From: Hyphococcus sp.
GTDB lineage: Bacteria > Pseudomonadota > Alphaproteobacteria > Caulobacterales > Parvularculaceae
Assembly: GCA_021776335.1 (NCBI GenBank)
Contig: JAJFGB010000007.1
Coordinates: 682,001 to 746,000, forward strand
Length of the DNA stretch: 64,000 bases
Direction: 5' to 3'
How positions within the stretch are numbered: position 1 is the first letter of the stretch; each line of letters opens with the position of its first letter. The position numbers were made by a program, and so were the translations under genes. Under the pieces are notes generated by a model. That model was given only the letters and a program-made list of their open reading frames with translations. It made no database searches and was not told where the DNA came from. Of the stretch, positions 8,869 through 52,471 are shown piece by piece.

Positions 8869-8899
8869 GAAAGTGGTCCCGTGCGCGGCTGCTTTGTCG

Positions 8900-9934
8900 T
8901 CACCATTCAAGAATGACTTTGCCGGATTGGCCCGACCGCATCACGTCAAAACCTTTTTGAAAATCACCAATAGGGTAGTGATGCGTTAATATCGGCGAGA
9001 GATCGAGCCCCGCCTGGAGCATTGTCCCCATTTTGTACCAGGTTTCAAACATTCGCCGCCCGTAAATACCTTTTATCTCGAGGCCTTTGAAGATCACATT
9101 GTCCCAGTTAATGCCGGCGCCGTTCGGCATCAGTCCGAGCATGGCGATCCTGCCGCCGTGATTCATCGTATCGAGCATGGACGAGAACGCCGCTGGAACG
9201 CCGGACATTTCAAGACCTACGTCAAAGCCCTCGGTCATGCTCAGATCACTCATGACATCGCGTAAATTCTCGGTCGATACATTGACGACGCGGGTTGCGC
9301 CCATTTTTCGCGCGAGATCAAGGCGGAAATCATTGACGTCTGTGATGACCACATGCCGGGCGCCGACAAATTTGGCGATCGCCGCCGCCATGATGCCGAT
9401 GGGACCGGCCCCGGTAATCAAAACATCCTCGCCCACAAGATCAAACGCCAGCGCCGTGTGGGTCGCATTGCCGTAAGGATCAAAGATCGCGCCCATATCG
9501 TCGGACACATTGTCCGGCAATTTGTAGACATTAAACGCCGGCACCGAGACATATTCAGCAAAGGAGCCGGGCCGATTGACGCCGACACCAACCGAGTTGC
9601 GGCACAGGTGACGCTTGCCGGCGCGGCAATTGCGGCAATAGCCGCAAGTGACGTGCCCTTCGGCGGAAACCCGGTCGCCGACGCTCATATTGAAATGCTC
9701 GGGGTGGACCTCTGAGCCGATCTCGACAATCTCACCAGCAAATTCGTGACCGACCGTCATCGGTACGGGAATGGTTTTCTGGGCCCACTCGTCCCAATTA
9801 TAGATATGCACATCAGTGCCGCAGATCGCCGAACGTTTGACCTTGATCAAGACGTCATTAACGCCGACCTCGGGCTTTGACGTATCGAGCATCCAGATGC
9901 CTTCTTCAGGCTTTGCTTTCATCAGGGCTTTCAT
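8900..9934 (-). CDS. tdh: L-threonine 3-dehydrogenase
   Basis: A 344-residue zinc-dependent medium-chain dehydrogenase (E. coli Tdh is 341) oxidising L-threonine to 2-amino-3-ketobutyrate with NAD+. It shows the catalytic zinc site [16 protein letters not shown] and GHEFAGEI, a structural zinc loop with four cysteines ([15 protein letters not shown]), and the NAD-binding [18 protein letters not shown]. It follows kbl by 10 bp, the classic threonine-to-glycine operon order, so the unstable product is passed to Kbl. It ends KVILEW, as in the family. Confidence 0.97.
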
Positions 9935-9944
9935 GGGCGGGATC

Positions 9945-11147
9945 CTAGATTATACCCAGCGTCTTACCAACTTTGGCGAACGCCGTCACGGCCTGATCGA
10001 CCTGGTCATCGCTATGGGCGGCGCACATCTGCGTCCTGATGCGGGCAAGGCCTTTCGGCACCACCGGGAATGAAAAAGCGGTAACGTAAACGCCTTCTTC
10101 CATCAGGGCTGCCGCCATTTCACCGGCAAGGCGCGCATCTCCGAGCATCACTGGAATGATTGGATGCTCGCCGGGTAAAAGATCAAAACCCGCTTCCGCC
10201 ATCTGCGCACGAAAACGCGCTGCGTTGCGGAAAAGTTGCGTGCGCAAATCGTCGCCGCCATCAACGAGCTCAAGGGTTTTTAGCGTGGCGCCAAGGAGGG
10301 CTGGCGTCAGCGCATTGGAAAAGAGATAGGGGCGGGCGCGATTGCGCAGGAGGTGAACAACTTTTTCCGATGCGCAGATATAACCGCCCATGCCGCCGCC
10401 AAGCGCCTTGCCGAGTGTGCCGGTTAAAATATCCACACGCTTCGCAACGCCTTTATGGGCCGGCGCGCCGCGTCCGCCGGGCCCCATGAAACCCGTGGCG
10501 TGACAATCATCGACCATCACGAGGGCGCCAAATTCATCCGCTAACGCACAAACTTCATCAAGCTTGGCGATATAGCCATCCATGGAAAAGACGCCGTCGG
10601 TAACGATGAGCTTTGTGCGCACGCCGTCCGCATCCGCTTGCTGCAATTGTTTTTTCAAATCATCCATATCGGAATTGGCAAAGCGATAACGTTTGGCTTT
10701 GCACAAGCGCACGCCGTCAATGATCGACGCGTGATTGAGCGCGTCTGAAATGATGGCGTCTTCGGGCCCCAGGAGCGGTTCAAAGACGCCGCCATTGGCG
10801 TCAAAGCAGGCCGCAAACAGAATTGAATCTTCATAGCCAAGGAAGTCGGCAATCGCTTTTTCAACCTTGCGATGAAGATCACTGGTGCCGCAGATAAAGC
10901 GCACCGACGCCATGCCGAACCCGTATTCATCCATGGTCGCCTTGGCGGCTGCGACAATTTCCGGGTGATCAGCCAGCCCAAGATAATTATTGGCGCAAAA
11001 ATTCAAAACACGTTTGGTTTCGCCATTATGGATCACGTCAATCACTGGCCCCTGGGGCGATGTGATCTGGCGTTCAATTTTTTCCAGGCCCTGCTCACGG
11101 ATGTCGGCGAGCGTTTCTTCGATGCGGTTATAAAATGCTTCGCGCAT
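9945..11147 (-). CDS. kbl: 2-amino-3-ketobutyrate CoA ligase (glycine C-acetyltransferase)
   Basis: A 400-residue PLP enzyme of the alpha-oxoamine synthase family. With CoA it splits 2-amino-3-ketobutyrate into glycine and acetyl-CoA. Key features are [22 protein letters not shown] with PLP-contacting Asp and His, and the Schiff-base lysine in [15 protein letters not shown]. The ATG at 11147 has GGGGAAAG upstream and gives [20 protein letters not shown], matching E. coli Kbl (398 aa). First gene of the kbl-tdh operon; the 173-bp region to the divergent phosphatase must hold its promoter. Confidence 0.97.
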
Positions 11148-11320
11148 GGGCTTTCCCCGTGATGAATTGCGTTGGTTGCGCTTGGTTTGACAGCCCAATG
11201 CCACGGGGTCAATTGGCAGGAGAGGGAAGTGAATTCAACGGGTTGAGGCGCATCGCTTGCGTATCAACCACGAAATCAGCAAGACCTTGTGAGGGGGCGT
11301 GTTCAACGAAAGCCAACAAG

Positions 11321-11869
11321 GTGCCGACACTTTATCTGATACGCCACGGACAAGCTGCTGCGCGCTGGGACGAAGAGGCTGATCCGGGCCTTAGTGATGA
11401 AGGACGCGAGCAGGCGGCGCGTGCGTCGTCGACTTTATCATCGTTGAGCCCTGGGGTGATCGTCACCAGCCCCATGCGTCGATGTCGCGAAACTGCAGCC
11501 CCGTTGGAAGCATCCTGGGCGCGCAAGGCCGTCATCAATGACCAAATATCGGAAATCACATCGCCGACCGTCGACCCCGCGGAGCGTGGAAACTGGCTTA
11601 GCGGCATCATGGCCGGGCGCTGGAATGAAATGGACCCGGAATCCGGGAACTGGCGACAAGGCGTGATCGAGGCGTTGTTGGCGATCGAACAGGACAGCGT
11701 CATCTATTCGCATTTCGTGGCCATCAATGTCGCGGTGGGTTGTGCGACGGATGACGACAAGGTTTTAATTTTTCGCCCGGAAAATTGCTCGGTGACAATC
11801 ATCAATAATGATGACGGGCGCCTGCGGCTTTTGGAGCGCGGCGTCGAGGCGATAACGAAAATTGGCTAA
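11321..11869 (+). CDS. Histidine phosphatase superfamily protein
   Basis: About 182 residues from the GTG at 11321. The LYLIRHGQA motif at the N-terminus contains the phosphorylated histidine of the phosphoglycerate-mutase-like superfamily; further signatures are LSDEGREQAARA, VTSPMRRCRETA and the second histidine in IYSHFVAINV. The substrate is unknown. The start is uncertain because no good ribosome-binding site is seen; a longer reading would add unlike sequence. It is divergent from kbl and convergent with the LytTR regulator, from which it is separated by a dispersed repeat. Confidence 0.82.
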   Translation: MPTLYLIRHGQAAARWDEEADPGLSDEGREQAARASSTLSSLSPGVIVTSPMRRCRETAAPLEASWARKAVINDQISEITSPTVDPAERGNWLSGIMAGRWNEMDPESGNWRQGVIEALLAIEQDSVIYSHFVAINVAVGCATDDDKVLIFRPENCSVTIINNDDGRLRLLERGVEAITKIG

Positions 11870-11903
11870 GCGGCGCCGTGCAGGTCTTAGATTCTTGTTT
11901 GTC

Positions 11904-11950
11904 GCGTGATCGAACCGGAAAACCGGTTCCCATTTTTCCTGATCACGCTC
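11904..11950. repeat. Dispersed palindromic repeat, copy 3 of 3
   Basis: GCGTGATCGAACCGG and the mirrored end GATCACGCTC bound a 47-bp element matching copies at 5366 and 6070. It lies between the convergent phosphatase and LytTR genes, ending two bases from the stop codon of the latter, so it could serve as a bidirectional 3' structure. Confidence 0.88.
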
Positions 11951-11951
11951 C

Positions 11952-12767
11952 CTACAAAAACCGCGCGACGACATCCTTATAAGAACGCGAGAGTTTTAGC
12001 TCGCCGCCATTTTCGAGGATCAGGAAATACTCGCCATTGGAATGAGGGTGCAGTTCCTTGACCTTTTTCACATTGACGATGGCCGAACGGTGGACGCGCT
12101 GGAACCGCGCCGGGTCGAGGCGTTGCTGTAGCGCTTTCATGGTCTCGCGGATGATATGGGTCTTACCGCCCGCATGAATGCACATGTAGTCGCCTGCTGC
12201 ATCGATCCATTCAATTTCATCGGCGGTCAGAACAACGACTTTCGATCCGTCCTTGAAGGACAGGCGTTCAGCATAGCGCTGTTTTTCTGCCCAGTCTGGA
12301 TCGTTGATCAATTCTTTGATGCGATCGCGATCATCGTCGCTGAGGGAGGCCAGCAACTCAACAAGTTGCGACTCACGGCTGGTCGCCGCCTTTGATTTCA
12401 TCGCCTCGCGGGCGCGGTGGATCGCGTCTTTCAGGCGCTCTTCCTCGACGGGTTTGACGATGTAATCGAGGGCGTTCGCTTCAAACGCATCAATCGCGTA
12501 TTTGTCATAGGCGGTCACGAATACAAATAATGGCGCCGGTCCGCCGATCATCGCGCGCACAACGCCAAAGCCGTCCAGTCCGGGCATTTGTATATCGAGA
12601 AAAACAAGATCAGGCGTTTTCGCCTTGATGTCTCTTACCGCTTCACGGCCATTAGCGCATTCGCCGACAATTTCGATTTCCGGAAAGGCCTGAAGGCGGA
12701 TCTTAAGACCGCGCAGCGCCAGCGGTTCGTCGTCAACGATCAGCACCCGTATGTTGTCTTCGCTCAT
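11952..12767 (-). CDS. LytTR-family response regulator
   Basis: A 271-residue regulator with an N-terminal receiver domain (acidic pair VDDE, phosphoacceptor D58 in LVFLDIQMPGLDG, Lys in YIVKPVEEE) and a C-terminal LytTR DNA-binding domain (IEWIDAAGDYMCIHAGG, FQRVHRSAIVNV, LKLSRSYKDVV). LytTR regulators bind paired direct repeats upstream of targets. The ATG at 12767 lies one base after the kinase stop and has GGGGA upstream, so kinase and regulator form a coupled two-gene operon. The target genes are unknown; the neighbouring putA is a positional candidate only. Confidence 0.93.
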   Translation of the reverse strand: MSEDNIRVLIVDDEPLALRGLKIRLQAFPEIEIVGECANGREAVRDIKAKTPDLVFLDIQMPGLDGFGVVRAMIGGPAPLFVFVTAYDKYAIDAFEANALDYIVKPVEEERLKDAIHRAREAMKSKAATSRESQLVELLASLSDDDRDRIKELINDPDWAEKQRYAERLSFKDGSKVVVLTADEIEWIDAAGDYMCIHAGGKTHIIRETMKALQQRLDPARFQRVHRSAIVNVKKVKELHPHSNGEYFLILENGGELKLSRSYKDVVARFL

Positions 12768-12768
12768 T

Positions 12769-13947
12769 TTATTGTCCCCGATTTTCAAAAGGCAGTTTTA
12801 TACTGACGCACAGGCCCTGCGGCTTCAGTTTTGACAGGCGGAATTCGCTGCGGTCCTGATACATAAAAGTAAGTCGATCACGCATATTGACTAAACCAAC
12901 ACCATTCTTTGAGTTGGTGAGAATTGTCGAGGGGTCGTCCGGCGCATTAGGTCCATTGTCGCAAACCCGCATGTGCAGCATATTGCCGTCGCGCTTGGCA
13001 ATAATGGTGATCTCGCCGCCGTCTTCCATCTGCGCAATGGCGTATTTTATGGCATTTTCGATGGCCGGCTGCAGGATGAGAGAAGGCACCGGCGCATCAA
13101 GTGTTTCTTCATCGATTTCGAAATCGACTTTGAGCCGGTCCCCAAAGCGGGTTTTTTCAATCTCCAGATAAAGCTTCAACGCCCGCACTTCTTCGGCAAG
13201 CGATGTTTTCAGCAGCGGATCGCTATCCAGCGAGTAACGCAAAAACGCAGATAATTGCGTCAGCATTGAATTTGCTTGTTTGCCGTCCTGTTCGAGCACG
13301 AGTGTTGAAATGGCGTTCAGGGTGTTGAACAGAAAATGTGGGTTGAGCTGGTAGCGCAGCATTTTCAATTGCGCCTGATCAGCGAGGCGCGCTGACAACA
13401 GCGCGCGTTCCATTTCATTGCGGAGATTAAGGTAATAATTGATCCCGAAATAAAACCCGGCCCAGGACCCGAGGAGAAACAGATTCGCCGGCATGCTCGG
13501 AACAATAAGCAGTATATAATCGGTCAGGCTGGCGCTTTCGGCGTCCAAAGGTATCCACCCTCTGCCGATGACGATGCTGAAGATCAACGCTTTCATGCCC
13601 GACATCGCAACGGCCATGATGACCGTCGAGGTCAAAACAGTGGTCAGCAACAGGACCGGGCCCTGGCGGCGCGCCAGGCGGTAGATCGGTCGCGCCAGAA
13701 CACTCGTTGTTAAAAAACCGATGCCGGATGACGCCACCGAATAGAGCAGGGCCGGTGTTGTCCGGCCCGCAAGGAAAGTCGACACGCTCAAGATATGAAG
13801 GACGAAAAAGCCGACCCATCCCGCGATCTGAAGAACCCAGAACATGCGGTCTTTGTCGGCAAACAGCCAGTTCATCCACCGCCCGGAAATACCGGTGGCG
13901 GAGATAAAGGGTCCTGGCTGTTGGGCCGGGATGTCAGCGATGGTCAT
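12769..13947 (-). CDS. LytS/YehU-type sensor histidine kinase
   Basis: A 392-residue membrane kinase with four or five hydrophobic segments in residues about 35-170, then a short coiled region and the His_kinase module: phosphoacceptor H204 in LNPHFLFNTLNAIS, and a C-terminal ATPase with QPAIENAIKYAI (N-box), VCDNGPNAPDD and NGVGLVNMRDRL. The kinase pairs with the LytTR regulator encoded one base downstream. The signal is probably sensed in or at the membrane because no large periplasmic domain is visible. It lies 117 bp after putA on the same strand. Confidence 0.93.
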   Translation of the reverse strand: MTIADIPAQQPGPFISATGISGRWMNWLFADKDRMFWVLQIAGWVGFFVLHILSVSTFLAGRTTPALLYSVASSGIGFLTTSVLARPIYRLARRQGPVLLLTTVLTSTVIMAVAMSGMKALIFSIVIGRGWIPLDAESASLTDYILLIVPSMPANLFLLGSWAGFYFGINYYLNLRNEMERALLSARLADQAQLKMLRYQLNPHFLFNTLNAISTLVLEQDGKQANSMLTQLSAFLRYSLDSDPLLKTSLAEEVRALKLYLEIEKTRFGDRLKVDFEIDEETLDAPVPSLILQPAIENAIKYAIAQMEDGGEITIIAKRDGNMLHMRVCDNGPNAPDDPSTILTNSKNGVGLVNMRDRLTFMYQDRSEFRLSKLKPQGLCVSIKLPFENRGQ

Positions 13948-14064
13948 AAAAGAGTGCTCGTCATCTGGGCCTGAGTGAAGGCTGTTGCTTGCTGCAATGC
14001 AAGATCACCTGCGGCGAACAGCCCCTGCGCCGCGATAAATCCCTTCTCGCGCGCCTGTTTAACC

Positions 14065-17000
14065 CTATTCGCCAAGGGATAATAGCCGCACATCGCCGCC
14101 AGCAGCGGTGGTGTTGATAGAGAGTGTACGCTCTGTTGCAAAGCGCCAGGGGCCATCCAGACAGGATAGAAGGGGGATGATGGATCCCTCTCGTTTTGCA
14201 AGAATTTTCTCAATATCGGCTCGTCCTTCGCTGCCGCCGTCGAAGATCACGGCACTGACGCGGCCATCGAGGAGCAGCGCCTGTCTGACCGGACCCGGGA
14301 AGCAATGAACAATACCCGGGAGCCCGTCCGCAGCGCGTTCAATCGCTGTTGCGAGACTGGCGGCGGCCGGGTCCGTTGTGATGGCGCAATTGCCGGCGGC
14401 GAGCGCCAGGGCGATTTGGTGAAAACTCGTCTCTGCGTCGGCGCCGCCGAGACACAGCGCGACGCCGCGGCCCCGCAAGCGCAGTGTGTTAGATTCGCCT
14501 GTCGGGCCGGGCAATTCAATAGCCGGTTGAAAGACGGTGTCATAAATGTCGGCGCCTCTTGATAATTGTTGCGCCGCCTCCGGAACATTTTCCGCCGCCC
14601 GGCGCATAATCGCGCCGCGGTTACTGTTGTTCCATTGGTGATAGTCGGCATTCGCGGCGTTGAGTTCCTCGTCTTCTGCGAGCGGCAGTGTTTCGTCGGC
14701 GATATCACTCATGGTTTTCGAGATTGCGCGGGCGCGTTTCGTGAGCGCCTTCAAATAATGGGGTCCGCCGGCTTTCGGCCCGGTTCCAGAGAGGCCTTCG
14801 CCGCCAAATGGCTGCACGCCGACAACGGCGCCAATCTGATTGCGGTTTACATAAAGATTGCCGACGCGCGCGCGGCGTGAAATCGCATGCATGGTTTCAT
14901 CGATACGCGTATGGGCCCCCATGGTGAGGCCAAAGCCCAGCGCGTTGATCTCATCGATGAGAGATTCCAGCCTGTTCGCCTTGAACCGAACGACATGGAG
15001 AACCGGTCCGAAAATTTCCTCTTGCATATCGCTGAGCGCGCTGACCTCGAACGCTACGGGCCGGATGAACGTGCCTTCCGGTGCGTTGTCTGTCTCTGGG
15101 GCGCGTGCGATCAATCTTGCGGTGTTTTCAAGCCGCGTAATATGGCGCGCGATATTGTCCCGTGCGCCCTTGTCGATGACCGGGCCCACATCGGTTGAGC
15201 GCATCGATGGATCGCTGGTTTTGAGTTCCGCCATGGCGCCGGCGAGCATTTCATTGAACCGGTCTGCGATATCTTCCTGAACGCAAACGACACGGCAGGC
15301 GGAGCAACGCTGTCCGGCGCTTTGAAACGCTGAGGCGACGGTGTCCGTCACTGCCTGTTCCAACAGCGCCGTTGAATCGACGATCATGGCGTTGATGCCG
15401 CCGGTCTCCGCGATCAGCGCTGCATCATGCTTGCCGCTGTCAATGAGGCTTTGCTTGATGGTCTGGGCAACGCGCGTTGAGCCGGTAAAGATGACGCCAT
15501 TAACATCAGGGTGGGCGACCAGCGGCGTGCCGATTTGCGATCCGCCGCCGGGAAGAAAGTGCAGCGCGCCGCCAGGAATGCCGGCTTCATGAAGAAGCTT
15601 AACAGCTTCGAAGGCGATCAACGGCGTTTGTCCAGCGGGTTTGGCGACAACGCAATTGCCGGCAGCAAGACCCGCTGAAACCTGTCCGAGAAAAATAGCC
15701 AATGGAAAATTCCACGGAGAAATACAGGCGACAACGCCGAGCGGCGCACCCTCAAGTTGCTCTGCCTCGTCAGGGTAATATCTGAGGAAATCTACAGCTT
15801 CGCGAATTTCGGCGATGGCGTCTGGCCAGCTCTTGCCGGCCTCGAAAACCGCGAGTGTCATGAAATGCTCGGCGCGCGCTTCCATGAGGTCAGCAGCGCG
15901 GCGCAAAGCATCCGCGCGTGTATGCGCCGGTGTTGATGCCCATTGCGATGCAAAGGCGGCCGCCGCATCGCAAGCTTCATTCACTTCACGTTCGCCGGCG
16001 CTCTCCACTGATCCGACCGCGTCACTGAGATTGGCCGGGTTGGTCGCCGGTTCGATGACGCCGGCGCGTAATTCGCCATTGATGATCGCGCGTGCGGCAA
16101 CCGGTGACAAACCATCGCGCGCTGCTCGCGTCATTGCTGCCGCCACTGGCGGGTGGGTTTCATCAAAGCCTTTGGCGGCGAGGCGCCCGCCCAGATGATC
16201 GCGCGGCGCCGGGATATTCGGATTTGCAATGGGGGTAAGCCCCGTCAATTCTTCAACCGGATCGGCGACAACATCGTCTACGGATAAATCAGGATCAATG
16301 AGTTGATTTACGAAAGAGGAATTGGCGCCATTTTCGAGGAGCCTGCGCACAAGATAGGGGAGGAGCTCTTTATGACCGCCGACAGGCGCGTAAATGCGCG
16401 AGCGCACGCCGTGAGTGATCAGATTATCATGAAGCGCTTCGCCCATGCCGTGCAGGCGCTGCAATTCATAATCGCTGTAATTGCCAGCCATTTCCTGCAC
16501 CATGGTCGCGGTCAGCGCATTGTGGGTGGCAAATTGCGGATAAAAGAAATCGGTCGCGGAAAGGAGTTTCCGTGCGCAGGCAAGATAGCTGAGGTCCGTC
16601 GACACTTTGCGGGTGAAGACCGGATAGCTCTCAAGGCCCATCACTTGAGCGCGCTTGATTTCAGAATCCCAATAGGCGCCTTTAACGAGCCGCACCATGA
16701 TCCGGCGATTGGTGCTGCGGGCAAGCGCGGCGAGCCAGTCGAGCACGAATGATGCGCGCTTTTGATAGGCCTGAACGACGACGCCGAAGCCTTCCCAATC
16801 CTGCAGATCAGGATCACGCATCAGCATTTCGATGATATCGAGGGAGAGATCGAGACGGTCGGCTTCTTCCGCGTCGATGTTGAAACCCATATTGGCAGCT
16901 TTAGCCTGTAGCGCCAGCGCGCGGGCGCGGGCGCCGAGTTCATTTAGGACGCGGGTTTTTTTCCCATATTCATAGCGCGGATGCAGCGCCGAGAGCTTGA

Positions 17001-17742
17001 CGGAAATACCGGGATTGTCAGCGGCTTTTCCGCTCGTGGAGCGTTCCGCGATCGCGGCGATCGCTTGCTCATATTCGCGGTAATAATTTCTGGCGTCAGC
17101 TTCGGTATGGGCCGCCTCGCCGAGCATGTCGTAAGAAAAGAGATAACCGTCTCTCGCGAATTTGTCGCCGCGCTTCATCGCCTCGTGGATGGTTTCGCCG
17201 AGCACAAAATGCTCGCCCATAATGCGCATGGCCTGGGCGACAGAGGCGCGGATCACCGGCTCGCCGAGCCGATCGAGAACGCCTTTTGTCGCCGCCGCCA
17301 TGCGGCCGAGCGGATCTTTGGCTTCGATCTCGTCGAGCCAGGCTGCGGTCAGCATCAGGGCTCTGGTTGAAAAATTAACCAGAGGAAAGGGGCTCGCGCC
17401 TGCATGGGCGGACCAGTCGCCGCCCTCGATCTTGTCTTCAATGAGGGCGTTTGCTGTCGCGGCGTCGGGCGTGCGTAACAGCGCTTCTGCAAGACGCATC
17501 AGTGTGACGCCTTCGGCGGTCGACAGGCCATATTCCTGGAGGAATTTGTCAATAAGGCCTGATCGGACTGCATTGGCCCGCGCAGCCTTCACAAATTCGG
17601 CGGCATTTCCCTGCGCCCGCGCCCGCGTGTCCGCACTTAGCCCGGCGTCCAGGACCAGCGCGGGTACAAGGTCCGCTTCGGCCACGAGATAGTGGTCACG
17701 AATGATGGAGCGCAGGGCGTCAAGGCTGGCAGGTGTCGACAT
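14065..17742 (-). CDS. putA: Bifunctional proline dehydrogenase / P5C dehydrogenase
   Basis: A 1225-residue trifunctional-length PutA lacking the ribbon-helix-helix repressor domain at its N-terminus. It oxidises proline to glutamate with FAD then NAD+. The PRODH barrel (about 170-480) has GISVKLSALHPRYEYGK, DAEEADRLDLSLDI and RLVKGAYWDSEIKRAQ. The P5C dehydrogenase domain (about 600-1000) has SPWNFPLAIFLGQ, AETGGINAMIVDS and the catalytic Cys of SAGQRCSACRV. The remaining 200 residues form the extra ALDH-like C-terminal domain of long PutA proteins. The ATG at 17742 has GGGG upstream; an in-frame TTG two codons earlier is less likely. Because PutA here cannot repress itself, regulation must come from another protein. 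Confidence 0.96.
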   Translation of the reverse strand: MSTPASLDALRSIIRDHYLVAEADLVPALVLDAGLSADTRARAQGNAAEFVKAARANAVRSGLIDKFLQEYGLSTAEGVTLMRLAEALLRTPDAATANALIEDKIEGGDWSAHAGASPFPLVNFSTRALMLTAAWLDEIEAKDPLGRMAAATKGVLDRLGEPVIRASVAQAMRIMGEHFVLGETIHEAMKRGDKFARDGYLFSYDMLGEAAHTEADARNYYREYEQAIAAIAERSTSGKAADNPGISVKLSALHPRYEYGKKTRVLNELGARARALALQAKAANMGFNIDAEEADRLDLSLDIIEMLMRDPDLQDWEGFGVVVQAYQKRASFVLDWLAALARSTNRRIMVRLVKGAYWDSEIKRAQVMGLESYPVFTRKVSTDLSYLACARKLLSATDFFYPQFATHNALTATMVQEMAGNYSDYELQRLHGMGEALHDNLITHGVRSRIYAPVGGHKELLPYLVRRLLENGANSSFVNQLIDPDLSVDDVVADPVEELTGLTPIANPNIPAPRDHLGGRLAAKGFDETHPPVAAAMTRAARDGLSPVAARAIINGELRAGVIEPATNPANLSDAVGSVESAGEREVNEACDAAAAFASQWASTPAHTRADALRRAADLMEARAEHFMTLAVFEAGKSWPDAIAEIREAVDFLRYYPDEAEQLEGAPLGVVACISPWNFPLAIFLGQVSAGLAAGNCVVAKPAGQTPLIAFEAVKLLHEAGIPGGALHFLPGGGSQIGTPLVAHPDVNGVIFTGSTRVAQTIKQSLIDSGKHDAALIAETGGINAMIVDSTALLEQAVTDTVASAFQSAGQRCSACRVVCVQEDIADRFNEMLAGAMAELKTSDPSMRSTDVGPVIDKGARDNIARHITRLENTARLIARAPETDNAPEGTFIRPVAFEVSALSDMQEEIFGPVLHVVRFKANRLESLIDEINALGFGLTMGAHTRIDETMHAISRRARVGNLYVNRNQIGAVVGVQPFGGEGLSGTGPKAGGPHYLKALTKRARAISKTMSDIADETLPLAEDEELNAANADYHQWNNSNRGAIMRRAAENVPEAAQQLSRGADIYDTVFQPAIELPGPTGESNTLRLRGRGVALCLGGADAETSFHQIALALAAGNCAITTDPAAASLATAIERAADGLPGIVHCFPGPVRQALLLDGRVSAVIFDGGSEGRADIEKILAKREGSIIPLLSCLDGPWRFATERTLSINTTAAGGDVRLLSLGE

Positions 17743-18020
17743 TCTCAAACCCCAAAAAAGGATATTTTCCAGCCCGCTTAGCGTGTTGATTGCCGTCTGT
17801 CATGCCCGATTTATCCGGTCTGCTCAGATGTCGCTGGAGAGCCGGAGCCGGCTCGTAAAAATTGATTAGAATTGACTTTCTAAAACCCGCGCCATGCGCT
17901 GCAACGCGCCATTGCGCGGGTCCCCAGCCGGGCCTAACTAAGGACCTGAAAGCACGGGTCGACGGGCCCGCCGCGATGCAAATTCTGACTGCAGAATTGA
18001 CAGCCGAAAGGACGCCCTAA

Positions 18021-19229
18021 ATGACGGAAGCCTATATTTATGACGCTGTGCGCACCCCGCGCGGTAAAGGCAAGGCCGATGGCAGCCTCCATGAGATAAC
18101 ACCCGTCCAGTTGGCGACGCAGGTTCTTGAGGCAATCCGGGACCGCAATGAGATTGATGCTGGTGAAATTGAAGATGTGGCCCTGGGCTGCGTTTCGCCG
18201 GTGGGCGAGCAGGGTGCGGTCGTCACTCGTACGGCAATCCTGAATGCGGGCTATCCCGAAACCACATCAGGCATTCAGGTGAACCGTTTTTGCGCTTCCG
18301 GTCTGGAGGCGATCAACATCGCCGCCGCGAAAGTGAAAGCCGGCGAAGCGGATCTGACGATTGGCGGCGGCGTCGAACATATGAGCCGCGTGCCCATGGG
18401 CTCCGATGGCGGCGCCTGGCCCACCGATCCTGAAACCGCGTTTAAAACCTATTTCGTGCCCCAGGGTATTTCCGCTGATTTGATCGCTACGAAATACGGG
18501 TTGTCGCGCGACGACGTGGACGCCTATGCGGTTGAAAGCCAGAAACGCGCTGCGCAGTCCTGGACCGAAAAACGTTTTGCGAAATCAATCGTCCCCGTGA
18601 CCGATGTGATCGGCGAAGTCGCGCTCGATCATGATGAGACGGTGCGCGCCAATACCGACATGCAATCGCTCGGCGCCCTGTCTCCCTCTTTTACAATGTT
18701 CGGTGAGAATTTTGGTTTTGACGCAGTAGCATTACAAAAATACGCCGAGATTGAAAAAATCAAACATGTTCATCATGCGGGCAATTCATCGGGCATCGTC
18801 GATGGCGCCGCCGCAGTATTGGTTGGCAATGAAGAGATTGGCAAAAAGCTCGGGATGAAACCCCGGGCGCGCATCCGCTCTATGGCGTCGATTGGTTCAG
18901 AGCCAACGATCATGCTGACAGGGCCGGAATTTGCGGCCAAAAAAGCGCTCGCCAAAGCCGGGATGAATGCAAAAGACATCGATCTTTGGGAATTGAATGA
19001 AGCATTTGCTTCGGTGGTCCTGCGTTTCATGCAGGCGCTCGATATTGATCACTCGGATATCAACGTCAATGGCGGCGCGATCGCAATGGGCCATCCGCTC
19101 GGCGCCACTGGTGCGATGATCATGGGCACCATGGTCGATGAGCTTGAGCGCTCGGGCAAGGAAACTGCCCTCGTGACGCTGTGTATCGGCGCCGGCATGG
19201 GTACCGCGACAATTATTGAACGCGTTTAA
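18021..19229 (+). CDS. fadA: Acetyl-CoA C-acyltransferase (thiolase)
   Basis: A 402-residue thiolase cleaving 3-ketoacyl-CoA in fatty-acid beta-oxidation. The nucleophilic Cys is in [14 protein letters not shown], and the C-terminal signatures are [18 protein letters not shown] (general base His) and [11 protein letters not shown] (second catalytic Cys). Length fits the family. It is 27 bp upstream of the FadB/FadJ-like gene, together a beta-oxidation operon. The 278-bp region upstream separates it from divergent putA; no clear operator was recognised there. The symbol is used for the pathway role; substrate chain length is unknown. Confidence 0.94.
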
Positions 19230-21599: not shown

Positions 21600-22304
21600 T
21601 TAGTAAAGGCGCTTGCGTTCATCATTTAAAACGATCTCGTGCATTTGCACCGGCGTTAGATCGAGTTTGCCCGCATCGACCATAGTCTCCGCCAGGCGCG
21701 GCAAACCATCCAGATCTGGCCAGTGGTCTGACTGCCAGAGCTTTGACCTGATCATGCACTTTGAGCAATGAAAGAACGCCTCCTCGACCGAGACGACGAT
21801 CGCGAAATCTGGGACCTTATTGTTGATCGCCATCGATTCGCGCAAGGCGGTGTCTCGAACGATTTTCGCTGATCCGCTGACCCTGAGGGTTTCTGTTTTC
21901 CCCGGTATCAGGAAGATAATGCCAATTCTAGGATTTTCGAGGATGTTTTCGAAGGAATCCGCGCGGCGATTACCAAGTCGTTCTGGAATGGCTAGTGTTT
22001 TGTTATCAACGATTTTGACAAAGCCAAAAGGATCTCCTTTTGGAGAGACATCCATTCGTCCGCGCGCGTCAGCAGTTGACAAAATTATGAAAGGGCACCG
22101 GTTTATAAAGGCGCCGCAATGCCCATCCAGATGGCTGAGCGTTTTCCGCGTCACCAGTTCGCTTGGCTCGCCCATCACTTTTCGAAATTCATCGCGTGTT
22201 GTTATCACATCTTGGAATTCAGCCACACCAATATCGCGATATAGAATTCTGAAACTATATGCCAAAGCCTTAAGTCTGGCTATGATGGTCAGATGCAGAT
22301 TCAT
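21600..22304 (-). CDS. Pyridoxamine 5'-phosphate oxidase-like flavin-binding protein
   Basis: A 234-residue protein of the split-barrel PNPOx-like superfamily. Typical sequence includes FIILSTADARGRMDVSPKGD, TLAIPERLGNRRADSFENIL and GIIFLIPGKTETLRVSGSA. Many members bind FMN or F420 and their substrates are unknown. A C-terminal segment has two cysteines (FFHCSKCMIRSKLW). The gene looks AT-richer than its flanks. The start at 22304 has AGG upstream and falls at the edge of a duplicated hydrolase fragment on the other strand, so the first 20 or so residues may be recruited sequence; the conserved domain begins near residue 50. Confidence 0.8.
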   Translation of the reverse strand: MNLHLTIIARLKALAYSFRILYRDIGVAEFQDVITTRDEFRKVMGEPSELVTRKTLSHLDGHCGAFINRCPFIILSTADARGRMDVSPKGDPFGFVKIVDNKTLAIPERLGNRRADSFENILENPRIGIIFLIPGKTETLRVSGSAKIVRDTALRESMAINNKVPDFAIVVSVEEAFFHCSKCMIRSKLWQSDHWPDLDGLPRLAETMVDAGKLDLTPVQMHEIVLNDERKRLY

Positions 22305-22538
22305 GCGCCTGGAGGGCTGACGCGGCAGCGTCTTTCAACTCTGCAGCATGAAGGCCTGCCAATCACCACAGCGCTTTTCTCCGGAACCGATCACGGCGTG
22401 CTGGAGTTTATACAAACGCCAGACGACAGTTGGCGCTACACGCATTTTACCGAAGGCTATTTCCGGCTCATTGCCGACTATATGAAGGGCGATTTTGCGC
22501 CGTCATCATGGATTAACTGCAACATTCGTTGCCGTTGA
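22302..22538 (+). pseudogene. Truncated duplicate of the alpha/beta hydrolase C-terminus
   Basis: The frame beginning APGGLTRQRLSTLQ reproduces the C-terminal 75 or so residues of the intact hydrolase at 27197-28507 (there APGALTRQRLATLQ), including the catalytic-His segment SGTDHGVLEF and the tail YTHFTEGYFRLIADYMKGDF. Nucleotide similarity is high through this stretch and is lost on both sides. There is no nucleophile domain, so it cannot be a working enzyme. It appears to be a remnant of a second copy, in the same orientation, about 6 kb upstream of the intact gene. Confidence 0.85.
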
Positions 22539-22552
22539 TCCATGATACGTGG

Positions 22553-23146
22553 TCAAGCGGGCGTCTGGCGGAGCGGCGGCGCTATCTTAATCCCTTTCGG
22601 GAATTCGAAGGCCGCTGGTAGATTAAGTTTTCCGAACGATCGCTTCATTATTGTGGCGCCGTGACTTGCTAACTCTCCATCCGCGCCAGCATTGCCGACG
22701 ATAATTTTTATGATGCGCCCTTTTTTTATTTTGAGGATTGCGCCATCGATTTTGAGTTTCAATTTGATATCGACTGAGGCTTCCGTCACCTTTTTGTTAT
22801 GCAAAATAAGCTCAACTCTCGGGGTGTGAACGGATGTAATTTTATGGCTGGCGAGCGCGAAGCTATGTATTTTATCTGATTCCAGCTTTTCACCCGTCGC
22901 ATATTCGCGCAATACACTTAGCTTCACCCAGGCGCTCCATAAAATATCGCCGATTGATATGTCGAGTAATTGATCCAGTGAGCGTTCAATGAGCCCATCG
23001 AGATGTTCACGCGTTGCTGTTGCTGCGCTTGCGGAAGCTGCTTTCGCCGTTTTCTCAAGATCTTCAACGGAGAAGAGGGCCCTCATATATTCTTGAGGAT
23101 CGCCATCACGGAATAGATCCGACAATTTTCGGTGGTCCTGCGTCAT
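22553..23146 (-). CDS. Conserved-looking soluble protein coupled to PASTA protein, function unknown
   Basis: A 197-residue protein with no signal peptide or membrane segment, so likely cytoplasmic. The N-terminal half is helical (SVEDLEKTAKAASASAATATR then IERSLDQLLDISIGDILWSAW). The C-terminal half is a regular alternation of short strands: RVELILHNKKVTEASVDIKL, LKIDGAILKIKKGRIIKII, then a glycine-rich turn and LNLPAAFEFPKGIKI. This strand pattern is reminiscent of an uncharacterised beta-domain I have seen in bacterial proteins, but I cannot name it. The start overlaps the stop of the upstream PASTA gene by one base (TAATG), implying translational coupling and a joint role. Confidence 0.75.
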   Translation of the reverse strand: MTQDHRKLSDLFRDGDPQEYMRALFSVEDLEKTAKAASASAATATREHLDGLIERSLDQLLDISIGDILWSAWVKLSVLREYATGEKLESDKIHSFALASHKITSVHTPRVELILHNKKVTEASVDIKLKLKIDGAILKIKKGRIIKIIVGNAGADGELASHGATIMKRSFGKLNLPAAFEFPKGIKIAPPLRQTPA

Positions 23147-25002
23147 TACCTATCATCCTCTTCATTTGTTTCGTCGATCGTCTGCGTTCCGAGATCTGTA
23201 AATACGCGTAATTCGACGGGCGCCTCATTTTGTCGGTCGTCCTCGGAACCGGCGAGCTCAGAGACTGATTGGCGGCCATGGTCGCGGAACACCCGCAACT
23301 CCAAGCCGTCTGATGCATCTATCTCCGGTGAGATTTTCTTCGGCGACGCTAATGCTTGCGCGCCAAGCCAGGCCCCGCCGATCACCAAGGCGCTAATGAC
23401 GCCTGCGGCCGCTGCCAACAGCGGGAGTGGTTTGTCTGCGGAAACAACGATCTCGACGCTTTTTTGGGAATTTAGTTTTTCATTCGCCATAGGCGATTGC
23501 GAAAGAATCTCGCCGTCGCGTATGAAGGACAATTGCTGACCGACTTCGATAAGTCTTATTGGCGGGAATGCGAGCTTGGCTTCTTCTGCGGTTTTACCAA
23601 GTAGGTTTGGCGTCGTCGGCCAGCCGCTGGAAACAACGATATTGATGGAGCGGTTTGCCGGCAGTTTTTGTCCTGGCGCAGGTGTTTGCGCAATGATGAT
23701 ATCAGGCGCTGCATCTAGGTGCTGTTGTGGTTCGGTAATCAATGTCATACCGCGTGTTAATTGCTGCACTTCGGCGCTGTCTGCCAGTTTGCCTTCAAGT
23801 GTTGGCGCGGTGGGCCAGCCGCTGGAAATAACGACATCGATGGAGCGGTTCGCCGACAGCTTTTGTCCTGGCGTCGGGACTTGCGTGATAATGGTGTTTG
23901 GCGCCGCCGCCGGATCTTCCCGGTGCTCCTGAATCAGCATCATACCGCGCGTTAATTGCTGCACCTCGGCGCTATCTGCCATTTTTCCCTCAAGCGCCGG
24001 CGCTGTGGGCCAACCACTCGAGACAACGACATTGATCGAGCGATCTGCCGACAGCTTTTGTCCTGGCGTTGGCGCTTGTGCAATAATGATGTTTGGCGCC
24101 GCCACTGGATCCTCGCGGCGCTCCGGAATCAAATTCATGCCGCGTGTCGTTCGCCGTATTTCGGCGCTGTCTGCCAGTTTGCCCTCAAGCGCCGGTGCGA
24201 TGGGCCAGCCACTGGAAACAACGGCGTTGATCGAACGATTCGCCGGTAATTTTTGTCCCGGCTTTGGCGTTTGCGCGACAATGATGTTAGGCGCGGCCTC
24301 GGGATCTTCTCGGCGTTCCGACACTATTCTTATGCCGCGCGTTAATCGCCGCACCTCCGCGCTATCGGTCATTTTGCCCTCGAGCGCGGGCGCGGTCGGC
24401 CAGCCGCTGGAAACAGTGATGTTGACGAAACGGTTCGCCGGCAGTGTCCGTCCTGGTGTTGGTGTTTGTGCAATAATGATGTTGCGCGCCGCATCGTGAT
24501 CTTCACGGAATTCTGGAACCACTCTCATGCCGCGTGTCATGCGTCGCACCTCGGCGCTGTCTACTCGCTTGCCTTTGAGCGCAGGCGCTGTCGGCCAACC
24601 ACTGGAAAGGTCTATCTGAAATACATATTCGCCGGCGGCATTTGCGGGCAGTATCCCATTTTGGGCGGGGCTCTGCGAGACAATGCGTCCGCGCGCTATT
24701 GTTCGCGACTCGATGTTTCGGCGCACAACAGCTCGCGCGATCTGCGTTCCATAAACACGATTTTCCGCTTGGCGTCGAACTGCTTGTTCTGCCTGTGCTG
24801 TCGTCATGCCAATGATGCGCGGCATTGTAATGGGCACAGGAAACTCAACCTTAGCGGGGGAGCCCTGTCCGGGTTCAATTGATTGCGCGGATGCACTTTG
24901 CGTTATTGCCAACGCCGAACAGAACAGCACGATTATAACCCGTGCGCCGGTGGCCATCAGCGTCAAAAATCGATTGTGTAACGCAAGACCAGCAAAGGAC
25001 AT
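23146..25002 (-). CDS. Secreted-repeat PASTA protein with C-terminal transmembrane helix and cytoplasmic tail
   Basis: 618 residues: a signal peptide (cleavage near SASA-QS, about residue 40), a degenerate first PASTA-like unit (about 57-130), six PASTA-like units of exactly 65 residues (133-522), a transmembrane helix (about 526-550) and a charged tail. Each unit opens SSGWPxxPxLxGK and contains the PASTA-like pattern IIAQTPxPGQKLPANRSI. The tail carries a duplicated motif, LELRVFRDHGRQSV (567-580) and VELRVFTDLGTQTI (596-609). PASTA domains usually bind peptidoglycan fragments on Ser/Thr kinases or penicillin-binding proteins; neither catalytic part is present here. The predicted topology has repeats in the periplasm and tail in the cytoplasm. 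It is coupled to the 197-residue partner downstream. Confidence 0.85.
   Translation of the reverse strand: MSFAGLALHNRFLTLMATGARVIIVLFCSALAITQSASAQSIEPGQGSPAKVEFPVPITMPRIIGMTTAQAEQAVRRQAENRVYGTQIARAVVRRNIESRTIARGRIVSQSPAQNGILPANAAGEYVFQIDLSSGWPTAPALKGKRVDSAEVRRMTRGMRVVPEFREDHDAARNIIIAQTPTPGRTLPANRFVNITVSSGWPTAPALEGKMTDSAEVRRLTRGIRIVSERREDPEAAPNIIVAQTPKPGQKLPANRSINAVVSSGWPIAPALEGKLADSAEIRRTTRGMNLIPERREDPVAAPNIIIAQAPTPGQKLSADRSINVVVSSGWPTAPALEGKMADSAEVQQLTRGMMLIQEHREDPAAAPNTIITQVPTPGQKLSANRSIDVVISSGWPTAPTLEGKLADSAEVQQLTRGMTLITEPQQHLDAAPDIIIAQTPAPGQKLPANRSINIVVSSGWPTTPNLLGKTAEEAKLAFPPIRLIEVGQQLSFIRDGEILSQSPMANEKLNSQKSVEIVVSADKPLPLLAAAAGVISALVIGGAWLGAQALASPKKISPEIDASDGLELRVFRDHGRQSVSELAGSEDDRQNEAPVELRVFTDLGTQTIDETNEEDDR
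23437..24606 (-). repeat. Six tandem 195-bp coding repeats (PASTA units)
   Basis: Six in-frame units of 65 codons, each beginning with codons for SSGWP, at residues 133, 198, 263, 328, 393 and 458 of the PASTA protein. Units 2-5 are most alike; the last is the most diverged. The exact constant spacing suggests recent tandem duplication and possible copy-number change by recombination. Confidence 0.9.
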
Positions 25003-26536: not shown

Positions 26537-26621
26537 TCATTACGGCCATCACAGCGAGCGTTCAGTACAATAACCGGGGCCGCAATCGCGGGCCCGGTTG
26601 GTCTTGTTCTAACATAGCAGC

Positions 26622-26664
26622 TTGACATTTTCCATTTATACAATATTTTGTACAAATATTTGTA
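26622..26664 (+). promoter_or_regulatory. marR promoter with overlapping palindromic operator
   Basis: A -35 TTGACA (26622-26627) is followed after 16 bases by a -10-like TATTTT. Overlapping the -10 region are TACAATATTTTGTA (26639-26652, near-palindrome) and TACAAATATTTGTA (26651-26664, perfect 14-bp palindrome). They share a TA and suit a dimeric MarR repressor, so autoregulation of the following gene is likely. Confidence 0.65.
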
Positions 26665-26681
26665 AAAATGTGAGACGTCTA

Positions 26682-27173
26682 GTGAATGAAAAAGCCTTTT
26701 CTTATGCCAAGGATCTGCGTCCCGCCTTTCTCGCCCATATGGCGGATCGGTTAAATGCGTTGGTTTGCCGGCAGACCAAGGTGTTGCTTCAGAAAGCCGG
26801 GGCGCAAACACCGGTGCGGTCCGTATCAGTGATGATCTACCTTGATAAAAACGGACCATCTTCTGTTGCTGACATCGCGCGGTCCGAAGGGCAGAGCCAC
26901 CAATTGGTGACCTCGCGCACGGCGCCGCTGGAGCGTTTGGGGCTGATAAAGTCTTATGACGACCCGCAAGATGACCGGCGCCGTCTTTTAAAACTCACAG
27001 CGAAGGGCGCTAAAGATGCAGCGCGGGTAACGCGCGCTTCTAAAGACGTCGCCGCGTCGCTCGGCAAACTGAATGATGAAATAGGCGTTGATCTGATGTC
27101 GGTGATTGAAGCGGCGGAACAAAGCCTTCTCCGGCAGCCTATTGCCGAACGCGTCAACAGCCGCGCCGCGTGA
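26682..27173 (+). CDS. MarR family transcriptional regulator
   Basis: About 163 residues from the GTG at 26682. The winged-helix core includes LDKNGPSSVADIARSEGQSH, the recognition region LVTSRTAPLERLGLI and the wing DDPQDDRRRLLKLTAKGAK. The GTG is preferred over an upstream ATG at 26622 because that ATG lies inside the promoter with its TTGACA box and the operator palindromes. The gene overlaps or closely precedes the lipoprotein hydrolase gene, so it probably controls it. MarR proteins commonly respond to small phenolic or hydrophobic ligands; the ligand here is unknown. Confidence 0.9.
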   Translation: MNEKAFSYAKDLRPAFLAHMADRLNALVCRQTKVLLQKAGAQTPVRSVSVMIYLDKNGPSSVADIARSEGQSHQLVTSRTAPLERLGLIKSYDDPQDDRRRLLKLTAKGAKDAARVTRASKDVAASLGKLNDEIGVDLMSVIEAAEQSLLRQPIAERVNSRAA

Positions 27174-27196
27174 GCACATCAAACGGATGGAATGTG

Positions 27197-28507
27197 ATGT
27201 CTGACTTGTTACCTTTAAAAGCCGCGCCGGTTGTGCGCAGCGCGATCATATTACTCTGCGCGACTGTCACAGCGTGTGCGGCGGAGACGCCCGTCAAAGC
27301 CGCCTGCGATCCTGGTATTTACAATAGGGGCGAGGAGAAAGCCGTACTCTATGCGCGGACGCAAGAAAATGGCGATCCCGTCATGCGCTACACTTTTGTT
27401 TCCGGTTGGCGCGGTGTGTTGGGCGATGAGGGTGCGATCCTCGAATGTGCGTCGGGCGTTTTGTCATCAGCTGAGGGCGTCTTTGAACGGGTCTTCGTTA
27501 AAGAGCAGGACACAGTCTTTCAAAGCGGCGCATTGAATCTCAAGGGCCGATTGATCACGCCTGACCGTGAAGTCGCGGATGTGCGTCCGCTTGTCGTGTT
27601 CGTTCATGGATCAGAAGCGACACCCACCGTCGGATATTCATATTATCCTTATATTTTGGCGGCGCAGGGCGTTTCGGTTTTTGTCTATGACAAGCGCGGC
27701 ACGGGTCAATCCGAAGGCGAATATAATCAGGACTTCCACGCGCTTGCCGGCGATGCGGTAGCGGCAGCCAAAGAAGCAAAGCGCATGGCCGGCGCAAGCT
27801 ATGATCGCTTCGGTTTCTTTGGCGGGAGCCAGGGCGGCTGGGTCGCGCCGCTGGCTGCAATGACGGTCAGCGCTGACTTTCTTGTTGTTGGGTTTGGTCT
27901 TGTTCTGGCGCCCCTCGAAGAAGACGCTGAGCAGGTCTATGATGAAATGCGCCGCGCTGGTTATAGCGACGATGACATAGAAAAAGCGCGCGAGGTTACA
28001 AAGGCAACCGGCGAGATCGTTGCTTCACATTTTGAGGCCGGATTCGAAAACCTCACCAAGATGAAAACAAAATACACGGATGAGCCCTGGCTCACAGAGA
28101 TAGAAGGGGAATTCACCGGCGATATTTTGCGCGCGAGCGATGCTGAGTTGCGCGGGGGCGGACCCGATGATTTTGATGATGCTGACGTCCCATGGCGCCA
28201 TGATGCCATGGCGGTCTTGCGATCGCTTTCATTACCGCAGCTCTGGGTGATCGCGGGAGAGGACACAGCGGCGCCCGGCGCGCTGACGCGACAGCGCCTT
28301 GCAACCCTGCAGCAGGAAGGATTGCCGATTACGACAGCGCTCTTTCCCGGAACCGATCATGGCATGGTTGAATTTATTGAGGCGCCCGATGGCAGCCGCC
28401 ACTACACGCATTTTACAGAAGGATATTTCCGGCTCATCACCGATTATATGAAGGGCGATTTTTCGCCGCCCTATGGGCGGGCGGAGATCAGCGGCGCGCC
28501 GGATTGA
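27197..28507 (+). CDS. Alpha/beta hydrolase, probable lipoprotein
   Basis: A 436-residue serine hydrolase with an N-terminal lipoprotein signal (SAIILLCATVTAC, lipobox VTAC). The hydrolase core has PLVVFVHGSEATPTVGY (oxyanion region), VYDKRGTGQSEGEYN, the nucleophile elbow FGGSQGGWVAP and the catalytic His in GTDHGMVEF. It looks like the S9/dienelactone-hydrolase-like class; the substrate is unknown. The ATG at 27197 lies 23 bases after the MarR stop, preceded by GGATGGA; a GTG at 27170 overlapping that stop is possible. A truncated second copy of its C-terminus lies at 22302-22538. Confidence 0.87.
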   Translation: MSDLLPLKAAPVVRSAIILLCATVTACAAETPVKAACDPGIYNRGEEKAVLYARTQENGDPVMRYTFVSGWRGVLGDEGAILECASGVLSSAEGVFERVFVKEQDTVFQSGALNLKGRLITPDREVADVRPLVVFVHGSEATPTVGYSYYPYILAAQGVSVFVYDKRGTGQSEGEYNQDFHALAGDAVAAAKEAKRMAGASYDRFGFFGGSQGGWVAPLAAMTVSADFLVVGFGLVLAPLEEDAEQVYDEMRRAGYSDDDIEKAREVTKATGEIVASHFEAGFENLTKMKTKYTDEPWLTEIEGEFTGDILRASDAELRGGGPDDFDDADVPWRHDAMAVLRSLSLPQLWVIAGEDTAAPGALTRQRLATLQQEGLPITTALFPGTDHGMVEFIEAPDGSRHYTHFTEGYFRLITDYMKGDFSPPYGRAEISGAPD

Positions 28508-43637: not shown

Positions 43638-43725
43638 ATTTGTTTTTATCAGGCAGACCCGATATTAAACATGCGCCAAACCATTAGTTTTGATAGGTTT
43701 AGATGATGAAAAAAAGGCCAGCGTT

Positions 43726-51273: not shown

Positions 51274-52347
51274 CTACATCCCTCTTTGCAGGTCTGTTGA
51301 TCGCGCCGGCATCATTGCTGCGTGTGCCGGTCCTTTCTCGTTGTCTGTCTGCGTATATTCATCAATGATTATGGAGGCTTCGCTGGATGCGATCGCAGCG
51401 GTTTTCTCACCGGTTTTGACCGCATCGGCGAGGCCAAGAATTTTCATATAAAGTTCTTCCGGCTCGCCTTCGATGGTCAGGCCAAAACTATCGTTGCGCG
51501 TTTCAATCCGCGCCCATTCGTTTCGAATGTCAGCCCAGAAATTTTCTGTTGCCGCCCAGTAATCGTCGCCAATGGCGATGTCGAAGTCGTCGAACTTTGT
51601 ATATGTGTTGACGCCAATCTCACGCACAAGCGCATAAGGTTCATCGCCAAAGACGAGTTTTGAATTATCCTGCTCATGCACCCAGCCATCAGGCGTGATA
51701 GCGTGGCGGTTGACCGCTTTTACAACGTGATAGTCGTCTCTTGTTGTCGCATCGCGACGCGGGAGGGGGCGCCATTCCGCAGGCGGTGTCCAGGCCGATA
51801 CGCCGTCTTCATGGGACCAGTCGCCAAGCGCGCCATAACGCGGCGCGTCATCAACCTGATAAACCGTTTGCGACCATTTTCCATTTGCTTGAACACCGCC
51901 GACTGAACGTTTTGTCCACGCATTGCGACCAACATAGATAAGAACCGATTGCGGTTCATATTGCCAGTCCTGTCGCCAGTGCTTGACCGGGAATTTCTCA
52001 TCGCCGCCCACCACGAGAATATGTTGCAGGCTGATAAAGTCGCCGCGATCTTCAATGACCCGAACAATTTCATGAGCGCCGCTGAGTTTGCGGTCTTTCA
52101 ACGCATAGTCCTCAACGAATGATACCGTCTCAATGAAATCAAAAGTGACGCGATAGTTTCCGGCCATGGCAAGAATCGCTTCGCGGTCTTTCTCGAAATC
52201 ACTTTCTGCATTTGTCTGGCTGGTTGCTGCGGGGGCGGGGGCATTGAGGGCTGCAGTTTGCGCAGTCGCGCAGCCGGCAAGAAGGATCGCGGCGGCAGCG
52301 GCGAAAAGCAGGGTCGGGCGGGAAGTCAGCGTCATTTCATTTCTCAT
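51274..52347 (-). CDS. DUF6607 family lipoprotein of the haem/iron locus
   Basis: A 357-residue lipoprotein (FAAAAAILLAGC) whose first domain matches the DUF6607 family as remembered: AILAMAGNYRVTFDFIETVS, then WRQDWQYEPQSVLIYVGRNA and WTPPAEWRPLPRRDATTRDD. Relatives lie beside TonB receptors for haem or iron, as here. It may bind or move haem or iron in the periplasm, but that is inference. It is divergent from the haem receptor across two Fur-like boxes, so iron repression is likely. Two in-frame starts, 52347 and 52335, both lack a strong ribosome-binding site. Confidence 0.78.
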   Translation of the reverse strand: MRNEMTLTSRPTLLFAAAAAILLAGCATAQTAALNAPAPAATSQTNAESDFEKDREAILAMAGNYRVTFDFIETVSFVEDYALKDRKLSGAHEIVRVIEDRGDFISLQHILVVGGDEKFPVKHWRQDWQYEPQSVLIYVGRNAWTKRSVGGVQANGKWSQTVYQVDDAPRYGALGDWSHEDGVSAWTPPAEWRPLPRRDATTRDDYHVVKAVNRHAITPDGWVHEQDNSKLVFGDEPYALVREIGVNTYTKFDDFDIAIGDDYWAATENFWADIRNEWARIETRNDSFGLTIEGEPEELYMKILGLADAVKTGEKTAAIASSEASIIIDEYTQTDNEKGPAHAAMMPARSTDLQRGM

Positions 52348-52391
52348 GGTTATGCGGCCGCGCCGCCTTGCTGGTGATTTGAATTTTATAA

Positions 52392-52406
52392 TGAGAATAA
52401 TTCTTA
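52392..52406. promoter_or_regulatory. Fur-like box 1
   Basis: TGAGAAT-A-ATTCTTA is a 7-1-7 inverted repeat with one mismatch to TGAGAATnATTCTCA, a classical Fur box, between the divergent DUF6607 and haem-receptor genes. Confidence 0.7.
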
Positions 52407-52442
52407 GTTGCAATACAAAAATGACCATGCTACCCGGCTAAT

Positions 52443-52457
52443 TGCAAATCATTCTTA
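52443..52457. promoter_or_regulatory. Fur-like box 2
   Basis: TGCAAAT-C-ATTCTTA, a second weaker 7-1-7 half-conserved Fur-like box, 15 bases before the receptor start and 36 bp after box 1. Confidence 0.5.
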
Positions 52458-52471
52458 ACTAGAAGGCAGTC

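Follow-up and report, generated by a model that had tools for sequence, protein, structure and literature searches.

What might an envelope protein built of PASTA repeats do when no enzyme domain comes with it? The question is raised by two overlapping genes in the window, as we call the whole 64,000-nucleotide stretch of Hyphococcus sp. DNA analysed here. The first gene encodes a 618-residue membrane protein with PASTA repeats and the second a soluble protein of 197 residues (Table 1). At E 0.001 the genome has six PASTA matches, all of them in the 618-residue gene, and the pair offers a way to ask how the state of the envelope is read in such a genome. We followed the relatives of the soluble partner, their gene neighbours and the short tail of the membrane protein.

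The gene pair

The PASTA assignment of the 618-residue protein is clear (Pfam PF03793, E = 1.9e-38, 130.7 bits against a cut-off of 23.2), and its DNA has a repeat period of 195 nt. Seven stretches pass the cut-off, one more than the six units of the original prediction, which in its other points described the protein well. Hydrophobic segments at residues 15-40 and 528-551 agree with the signal peptide, the C-terminal membrane helix and the short tail that it had proposed, the tail having about 67 residues, and the TAATG overlap with the next gene is there, with one base in common. The proposed lack of an enzyme domain also held up: no kinase or penicillin-binding family and no transpeptidase domain was matched in Pfam at E values up to 5, and the NCBIfam model of PASTA Ser/Thr kinases (NF033483) reached 198.1 bits against a cut-off of 450, its best stretch (residues 334-521) lying within the repeats. 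PADLOC matched the protein to PD-T4-6 (E = 5.3e-35 and 2e-24), again with the best stretches inside the repeats. As phmmer matched no PDB sequence at E 0.001, the PASTA identity rests on the profile match. Among the 61 other genomes of the family, none had a PASTA match at E 0.001.

Table 1. Position of the two genes and their parts in the window
Feature	Position	Strand	Basis
PASTA-repeat ectodomain-TM-tail protein, 618 aa	23146..25002	-	ORF and Pfam
Signal peptide, about residues 1-40	24883..25002	-	hydrophobic segment 15-40; limits by eye
Seven PASTA units, about residues 57-523	23434..24834	-	Pfam PF03793 and 195-nt period; outer limits by eye
Single C-terminal membrane helix, about residues 526-548	23359..23427	-	hydropathy; limits by eye
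Tail motif copy 1, residues 567-582, LELRVFRDHGRQSVSE	23257..23304	-	
Tail motif copy 2, residues 596-611, VELRVFTDLGTQTIDE	23170..23217	-	
TAATG stop/start overlap of both genes, one base in common	23144..23148	-	
Soluble partner, 197 aa, no family in libraries searched	22553..23146	-	ORF and homologues
Conserved strand-rich half of partner, about residues 94-187	22586..22867	-	model and alignment

Relatives of the partner

Relatives of the partner were found at 11 other loci (L011-L016, L019 and L028-L031). The module is rare: with the window partner (P0002) as the sole query, 3 of 384 other genomes of the class sample had a relative (E 1.3e-20, 2.5e-15 and 5.2e-7), a profile of 12 rows returned the same three, and the family of the window genome gave none in 61 other genomes (E 0.001). 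The phylum sample contained two in 397 other genomes, one of them already found and the other, G655, new. In the order of G655 the partner is present in 5 of 244 genomes, G655 included, and in the orders of G402, G089 and G245 it is confined to those genomes (1/10, 1/61 and 1/2).

Plasmid searches brought two Embleya and two Caballeronia records. The Caballeronia copies are identical and were counted once; the Embleya loci are close copies of each other (84%). In plasmid tblastn, P0002 matched Embleya only, the Embleya and Caballeronia proteins matched each other, and the partners of L012, L031 and L028 gave no match. The viral contigs scanned held no relative, nor did the genome contigs with P0002 as query; a 3-row alignment drew from the latter only two MAGs already known. 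Most distant of all is the Caballeronia protein (L015), which matches Embleya at E 2e-5 and 6e-6 and P0002 itself not at all. The partner tree has one split (support 82/87), with the window, L011, L012, L015 and Embleya on one side and L013 with five loci of one order on the other. The window and L015 sit on long branches, and the forks inside their group come out without resolution.

One arrangement, several ectodomains

At 10 of the 11 other loci, the partner gene comes directly after one that encodes an ectodomain followed by a membrane helix and a short tail, and in nine of those ten the two genes overlap; the locus that departs from this layout is L015 of Caballeronia, whose partner has no such neighbour. 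With the window included there are 11 linked pairs, of which 10 have an overlap of 1-23 nt and one a gap of 16 nt; the start codons are of our own choice, and L013 was read off the sequence itself. The N-terminal hydrophobic segment exceeds the hydropathy threshold in 9 of 10 full-length membrane proteins (not in L012) and the C-terminal helix in 9 of 11, the L013 fragment included (not in L011 and L031); the missed segments were set by eye. The Embleya membrane-protein ORFs begin well ahead of the hydrophobic segment, and their true starts are unsure. The arrangement recurs among Alphaproteobacteria, and two strains from a single actinobacterial genus have it as well.

What changes from locus to locus is the ectodomain. 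L011 has PASTA repeats (E = 7.5e-67) and L012 a CARDB domain (E = 5.1e-21). Matches in L013, L019 and L029-L031 are to PG_binding_1 or Ig-like domains, all weak and below cut-offs (for L013 in a search of the first frame only), and L014, L016 and L028 gave no match of weight. By eye alone, the Embleya ectodomains look proline-rich, with an IPT/TIG-like stretch. The partner core of L011, a PASTA locus, is 38% identical to that of L012, with CARDB, and 30% to that of the window, with PASTA; the partner therefore does not track the type of ectodomain.

These neighbourhoods bear on the original prediction, which proposed an envelope-to-cytoplasm sensor or scaffold and tied it to PASTA by holding that the idea would fail if partner relatives mostly lacked PASTA neighbours. 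Taken literally, they do lack them, as PASTA occurs at 1 of the 11 other loci, and we rejected a PASTA-specific sensor system as too narrow. The wider part of the proposal, an envelope protein coupled through its tail, is favoured by the same layout at 10 of 11 loci, which supports the predicted coupling from envelope to cytoplasm via the tail.

Some further features of individual loci were seen. In L013 (about 10370-10760), the membrane-protein gene of G089 shifts frame in a low-complexity stretch before the helix and tail, either a break or a sequence error. The pair of L012 stands in a run of genes (9340-18923) with a Tle1-like hydrolase and two RoxA-like cytochromes, and that of L019 (8895-17821) is divergent from a cluster of cytochrome c and GMC oxidoreductase genes; two small proteins in these clusters look alike by eye. 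In L015 (7839-10437) the partner homologue is convergent with an eCIS_core (DUF4157) gene, and the annotation of the 49 kb around it contains no injection-system gene.

The tail motif

The tail is 60-69 residues long in all 11 linked proteins, with limits set by eye in L011 and L031. In the first 15 tail residues positive charges outnumber negative ones in 9 of 11 proteins, the exceptions being the window (2 positive and 3 negative) and L011 (1 and 3). Together with the signal peptide, these charges would place the tail in the cytoplasm.

A motif occurs twice in the window tail, as LELRVFRDHGRQSV and as VELRVFTDLGTQTI, and in 1000 shuffles of the tail a similarity as high never arose. A self-repeat passes shuffling (at most 13 in 1000) in 4 of 11 tails, namely the window (0), L012 (0), L029 (7) and L028 (13), and does not go beyond shuffles in the other seven. 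L011, L012 and L016 match the window tail at 17-27 in 1000 shuffles and L014 at 56; the six others (L019, L028-L031 and L013) match it no better than shuffles do. A profile made from the window copies scores the C-terminal motif highest in L011, L012, L014 and L016; in those same six of the ten tails it does not come first.

The motif of the relatives had first been chosen by eye and was then rechecked with the window left out: the best three-way agreement over 16 residues among the tails of L011, L012 and L014 is the same motif in the same register. When a profile of these three was run over the 55 ORFs of the window (19564 aa), the two sites of the window tail ranked first and second (17.0 and 14.1), the next site scoring 8.4. 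For the first tree group (that of the window, L011, L012 and Embleya), the D-x-G-x-Q motif is thus solid. In the second group the tails carry D-x-x-P; joint alignment and equal length and position suggest that they resemble the first, a likeness that we regard as doubtful.

Distances between tails and distances between partners are correlated (r = 0.81, 0 of 5000 permutations), and for the seven divergent pairs r is 0.50 (62 of 5000 permutations), a correlation that could come from the co-inheritance of adjacent genes alone.

The partner protein

The 197-residue partner matches no family of Pfam, NCBIfam, PHROGs or PADLOC. Of the 12 partners, 11 were given to Pfam (L016 was left out), all 12 to NCBIfam and 7 to PHROGs and PADLOC. 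Besides an FHA domain on L011, these searches returned only weak matches below cut-off (best E 0.08 in Pfam and 0.02 in NCBIfam), no match in PHROGs or PADLOC for the seven searched there, and no enzyme domain among the 11 given to Pfam. The 12-row profile had four matches among PDB sequences, at E 1 to 1.8. Apart from the start Met, the residues invariant in the 12-row alignment are H101, P109 and G151.

The FHA domain is C-terminal in the L011 partner (Pfam, E = 5.6e-15), is found in that one member and is absent from the window partner. Judged by eye, the residues with which FHA domains usually bind phosphothreonine seem to be there. In that locus (8893-9801) the FHA-fused partner homologue stands beside the PASTA membrane protein, so that PASTA and FHA adjoin with no kinase on either chain.

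A low-confidence model of the window partner (mean pLDDT 62.9) has a helical N-terminal part and a strand-rich C-terminal part, in agreement with the helical and beta-rich halves proposed earlier. The model of the L020 core with two relatives is better (mean pLDDT 72.4) and predicts eight strands besides a long helix, with values mostly of 78-87 in the strand region. Foldseek gave no match at E 0.001 for the two models against the PDB, or for the better one against the viral library. A hot-dog thioesterase fold was compared by VIA with the low-confidence model (Z 5.6, rmsd 4.3, 77 aligned) and with the better model (Z 3.5, rmsd 5.1, 79 aligned). For a gasdermin-like strand arrangement, the best Foldseek E value was 0.02 with a TM-score of 0.12, and VIA gave Z 4.4 with an rmsd of 8.2-9.3 over 112-116 aligned residues. 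The best VIA Z values across the two models are 5.6 and 4.4. These searches, made with predicted structures, name no relative, and we assign no fold.

Genomic setting

For comparison of the setting, up to 10 kb after fadB were taken from 10 of 27 other genomes of the genus, one stretch of 506 bases being left out. None of the window genes between fadB and 43 kb was found at that site in nine genus relatives (tblastn, E 1e-8, identity above 30%), so the pair lies in a variable region. At two of the sites, L047 and L049, part of the gene at 43690 finds a match of 42%. In G037 (L055), genes matching window positions 51274-54622 come soon after fadB, and the window has about 29 kb extra (about 21600-51270), by either gain or loss.

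A direct repeat of 198 bp, 81% identical (22305-22502 and 28271-28468), flanks the pair together with a LysR and a MarR gene. The ORF at 22293-22538 is similar to the C-terminus of the alpha/beta hydrolase (27170-28507), and the pair is thus flanked by a copy of a hydrolase fragment. A possible operator is the palindrome-like inverted repeat (26621-26682) found where the MarR-type gene starts.

Proposed mechanism and alternatives

We lean, with no great confidence, towards reading the window pair as a member of a modular unit that couples the envelope to the cytoplasm, with putative docking of the partner on the tail. The first product would have its N-terminus outside and carry an exchangeable ectodomain, here of seven PASTA units that presumably sit on peptidoglycan. 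A single membrane helix would lead to a short cytoplasmic tail, in which the motif, resembling a strand-turn-strand, occurs twice. The soluble protein would be a cytosolic adaptor from a single family, with a long helix ahead of a strand-rich, antiparallel half; it would dock on the tail copies, probably by strand addition. We envision that when ligand is bound or clustering takes place outside, the adaptor would be positioned or clustered at the membrane. In the relative with the FHA-bearing adaptor (L011), the output would be the reading of phosphothreonine.

The same parts could serve as a structural anchor, in which a membrane protein bound to the wall only holds, by its tail, a cytosolic protein that forms oligomers, giving mechanical linkage or localisation with no transfer of a signal. 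We find this unlikely, though well worth keeping in mind: of the 12 partners, the 11 searched in Pfam matched no enzyme domain, the modelled long helix and antiparallel strands are compatible with an oligomer, and the matched ectodomains are of binding or adhesive types, yet the FHA fusion in L011 points to a link with signalling in at least one case. An accessory role in conflict, defence or secretion, with the membrane protein as receptor or anchor of an effector-type partner, is improbable. The sporadic distribution of the partner, the variable region around the pair, the Tle1-like and RoxA-like genes beside L012 and the eCIS_core gene adjoining the unlinked Caballeronia relative would suit such a role, but the seven partners searched have no PADLOC or PHROGs match, the PADLOC matches of the PASTA protein are strongest within the repeats, and by eye no neighbour is common to all loci within 8-10 kb on each side. 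That an orphan wall-binding PASTA protein is followed by an unrelated gene by chance is very improbable, because, even if neither gene occurs in 61 other family genomes and the window alone cannot show linkage, the arrangement recurs with different ectodomains at 10 of 11 other loci, in Alphaproteobacteria and an actinobacterial genus.

The coupling unit may in turn exemplify an undescribed class of enzyme-less envelope receptors, in which a short tail with twin motifs plugs several unrelated ectodomains into one adaptor family, with members in Pseudomonadota and an actinobacterial genus and with output sometimes to FHA; this broader proposal we make more tentatively. In the libraries and literature surveyed, no named family or system matched the tail, the partner or their arrangement. 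The pair is not described in that literature (including PMC7159879, PMC6213207 and PMC3848476), consulted largely as titles and abstracts and with few subscription papers among it; YARHG domains are mentioned there beside PASTA domains, and in one protein with CARDB, which is not this pair (PMC3848476). The arrangement suggests a plug-in design, in which the outside sensor is swapped while the short tail and the soluble adaptor are kept, and with it a general means by which the surface of a cell could be connected to its interior. It also offers a short, testable motif and an unnamed protein family.

Comparison with known systems

FHA proteins are typical downstream readers of PASTA Ser/Thr kinases, and the FHA domain on one partner here (L011) recalls that signalling. 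Like PknB, StkP and PrkC, the window protein has PASTA repeats outside, one membrane helix and, by prediction here, a cytoplasmic part. In those kinases the kinase domain is N-terminal and inside, and the PASTA repeats are C-terminal and outside. The window protein has the opposite order, a signal-peptide-like segment and PASTA repeats followed by the helix and tail, and no kinase domain was matched. The module also differs from them in that its ectodomain is exchangeable among relatives and its second component is a separate small protein; the PASTA receptors described in the reviews consulted signal via a kinase on the same chain. Envelope PASTA repeats are shared with penicillin-binding proteins of the PBP2x type, but in the window protein neither a transpeptidase nor any other enzyme domain was matched. 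The defence protein PD-T4-6 is a kinase domain with PASTA-type repeats; the likeness that PADLOC found to it is again best within the repeats, and the window protein has no matched kinase. Comparable in design are receptor-adaptor pairs that work through short cytoplasmic tail motifs, which combine a variable ectodomain with a conserved tail and a conserved cytosolic partner, as the module described here does with a tail and a partner for which no named family was found.
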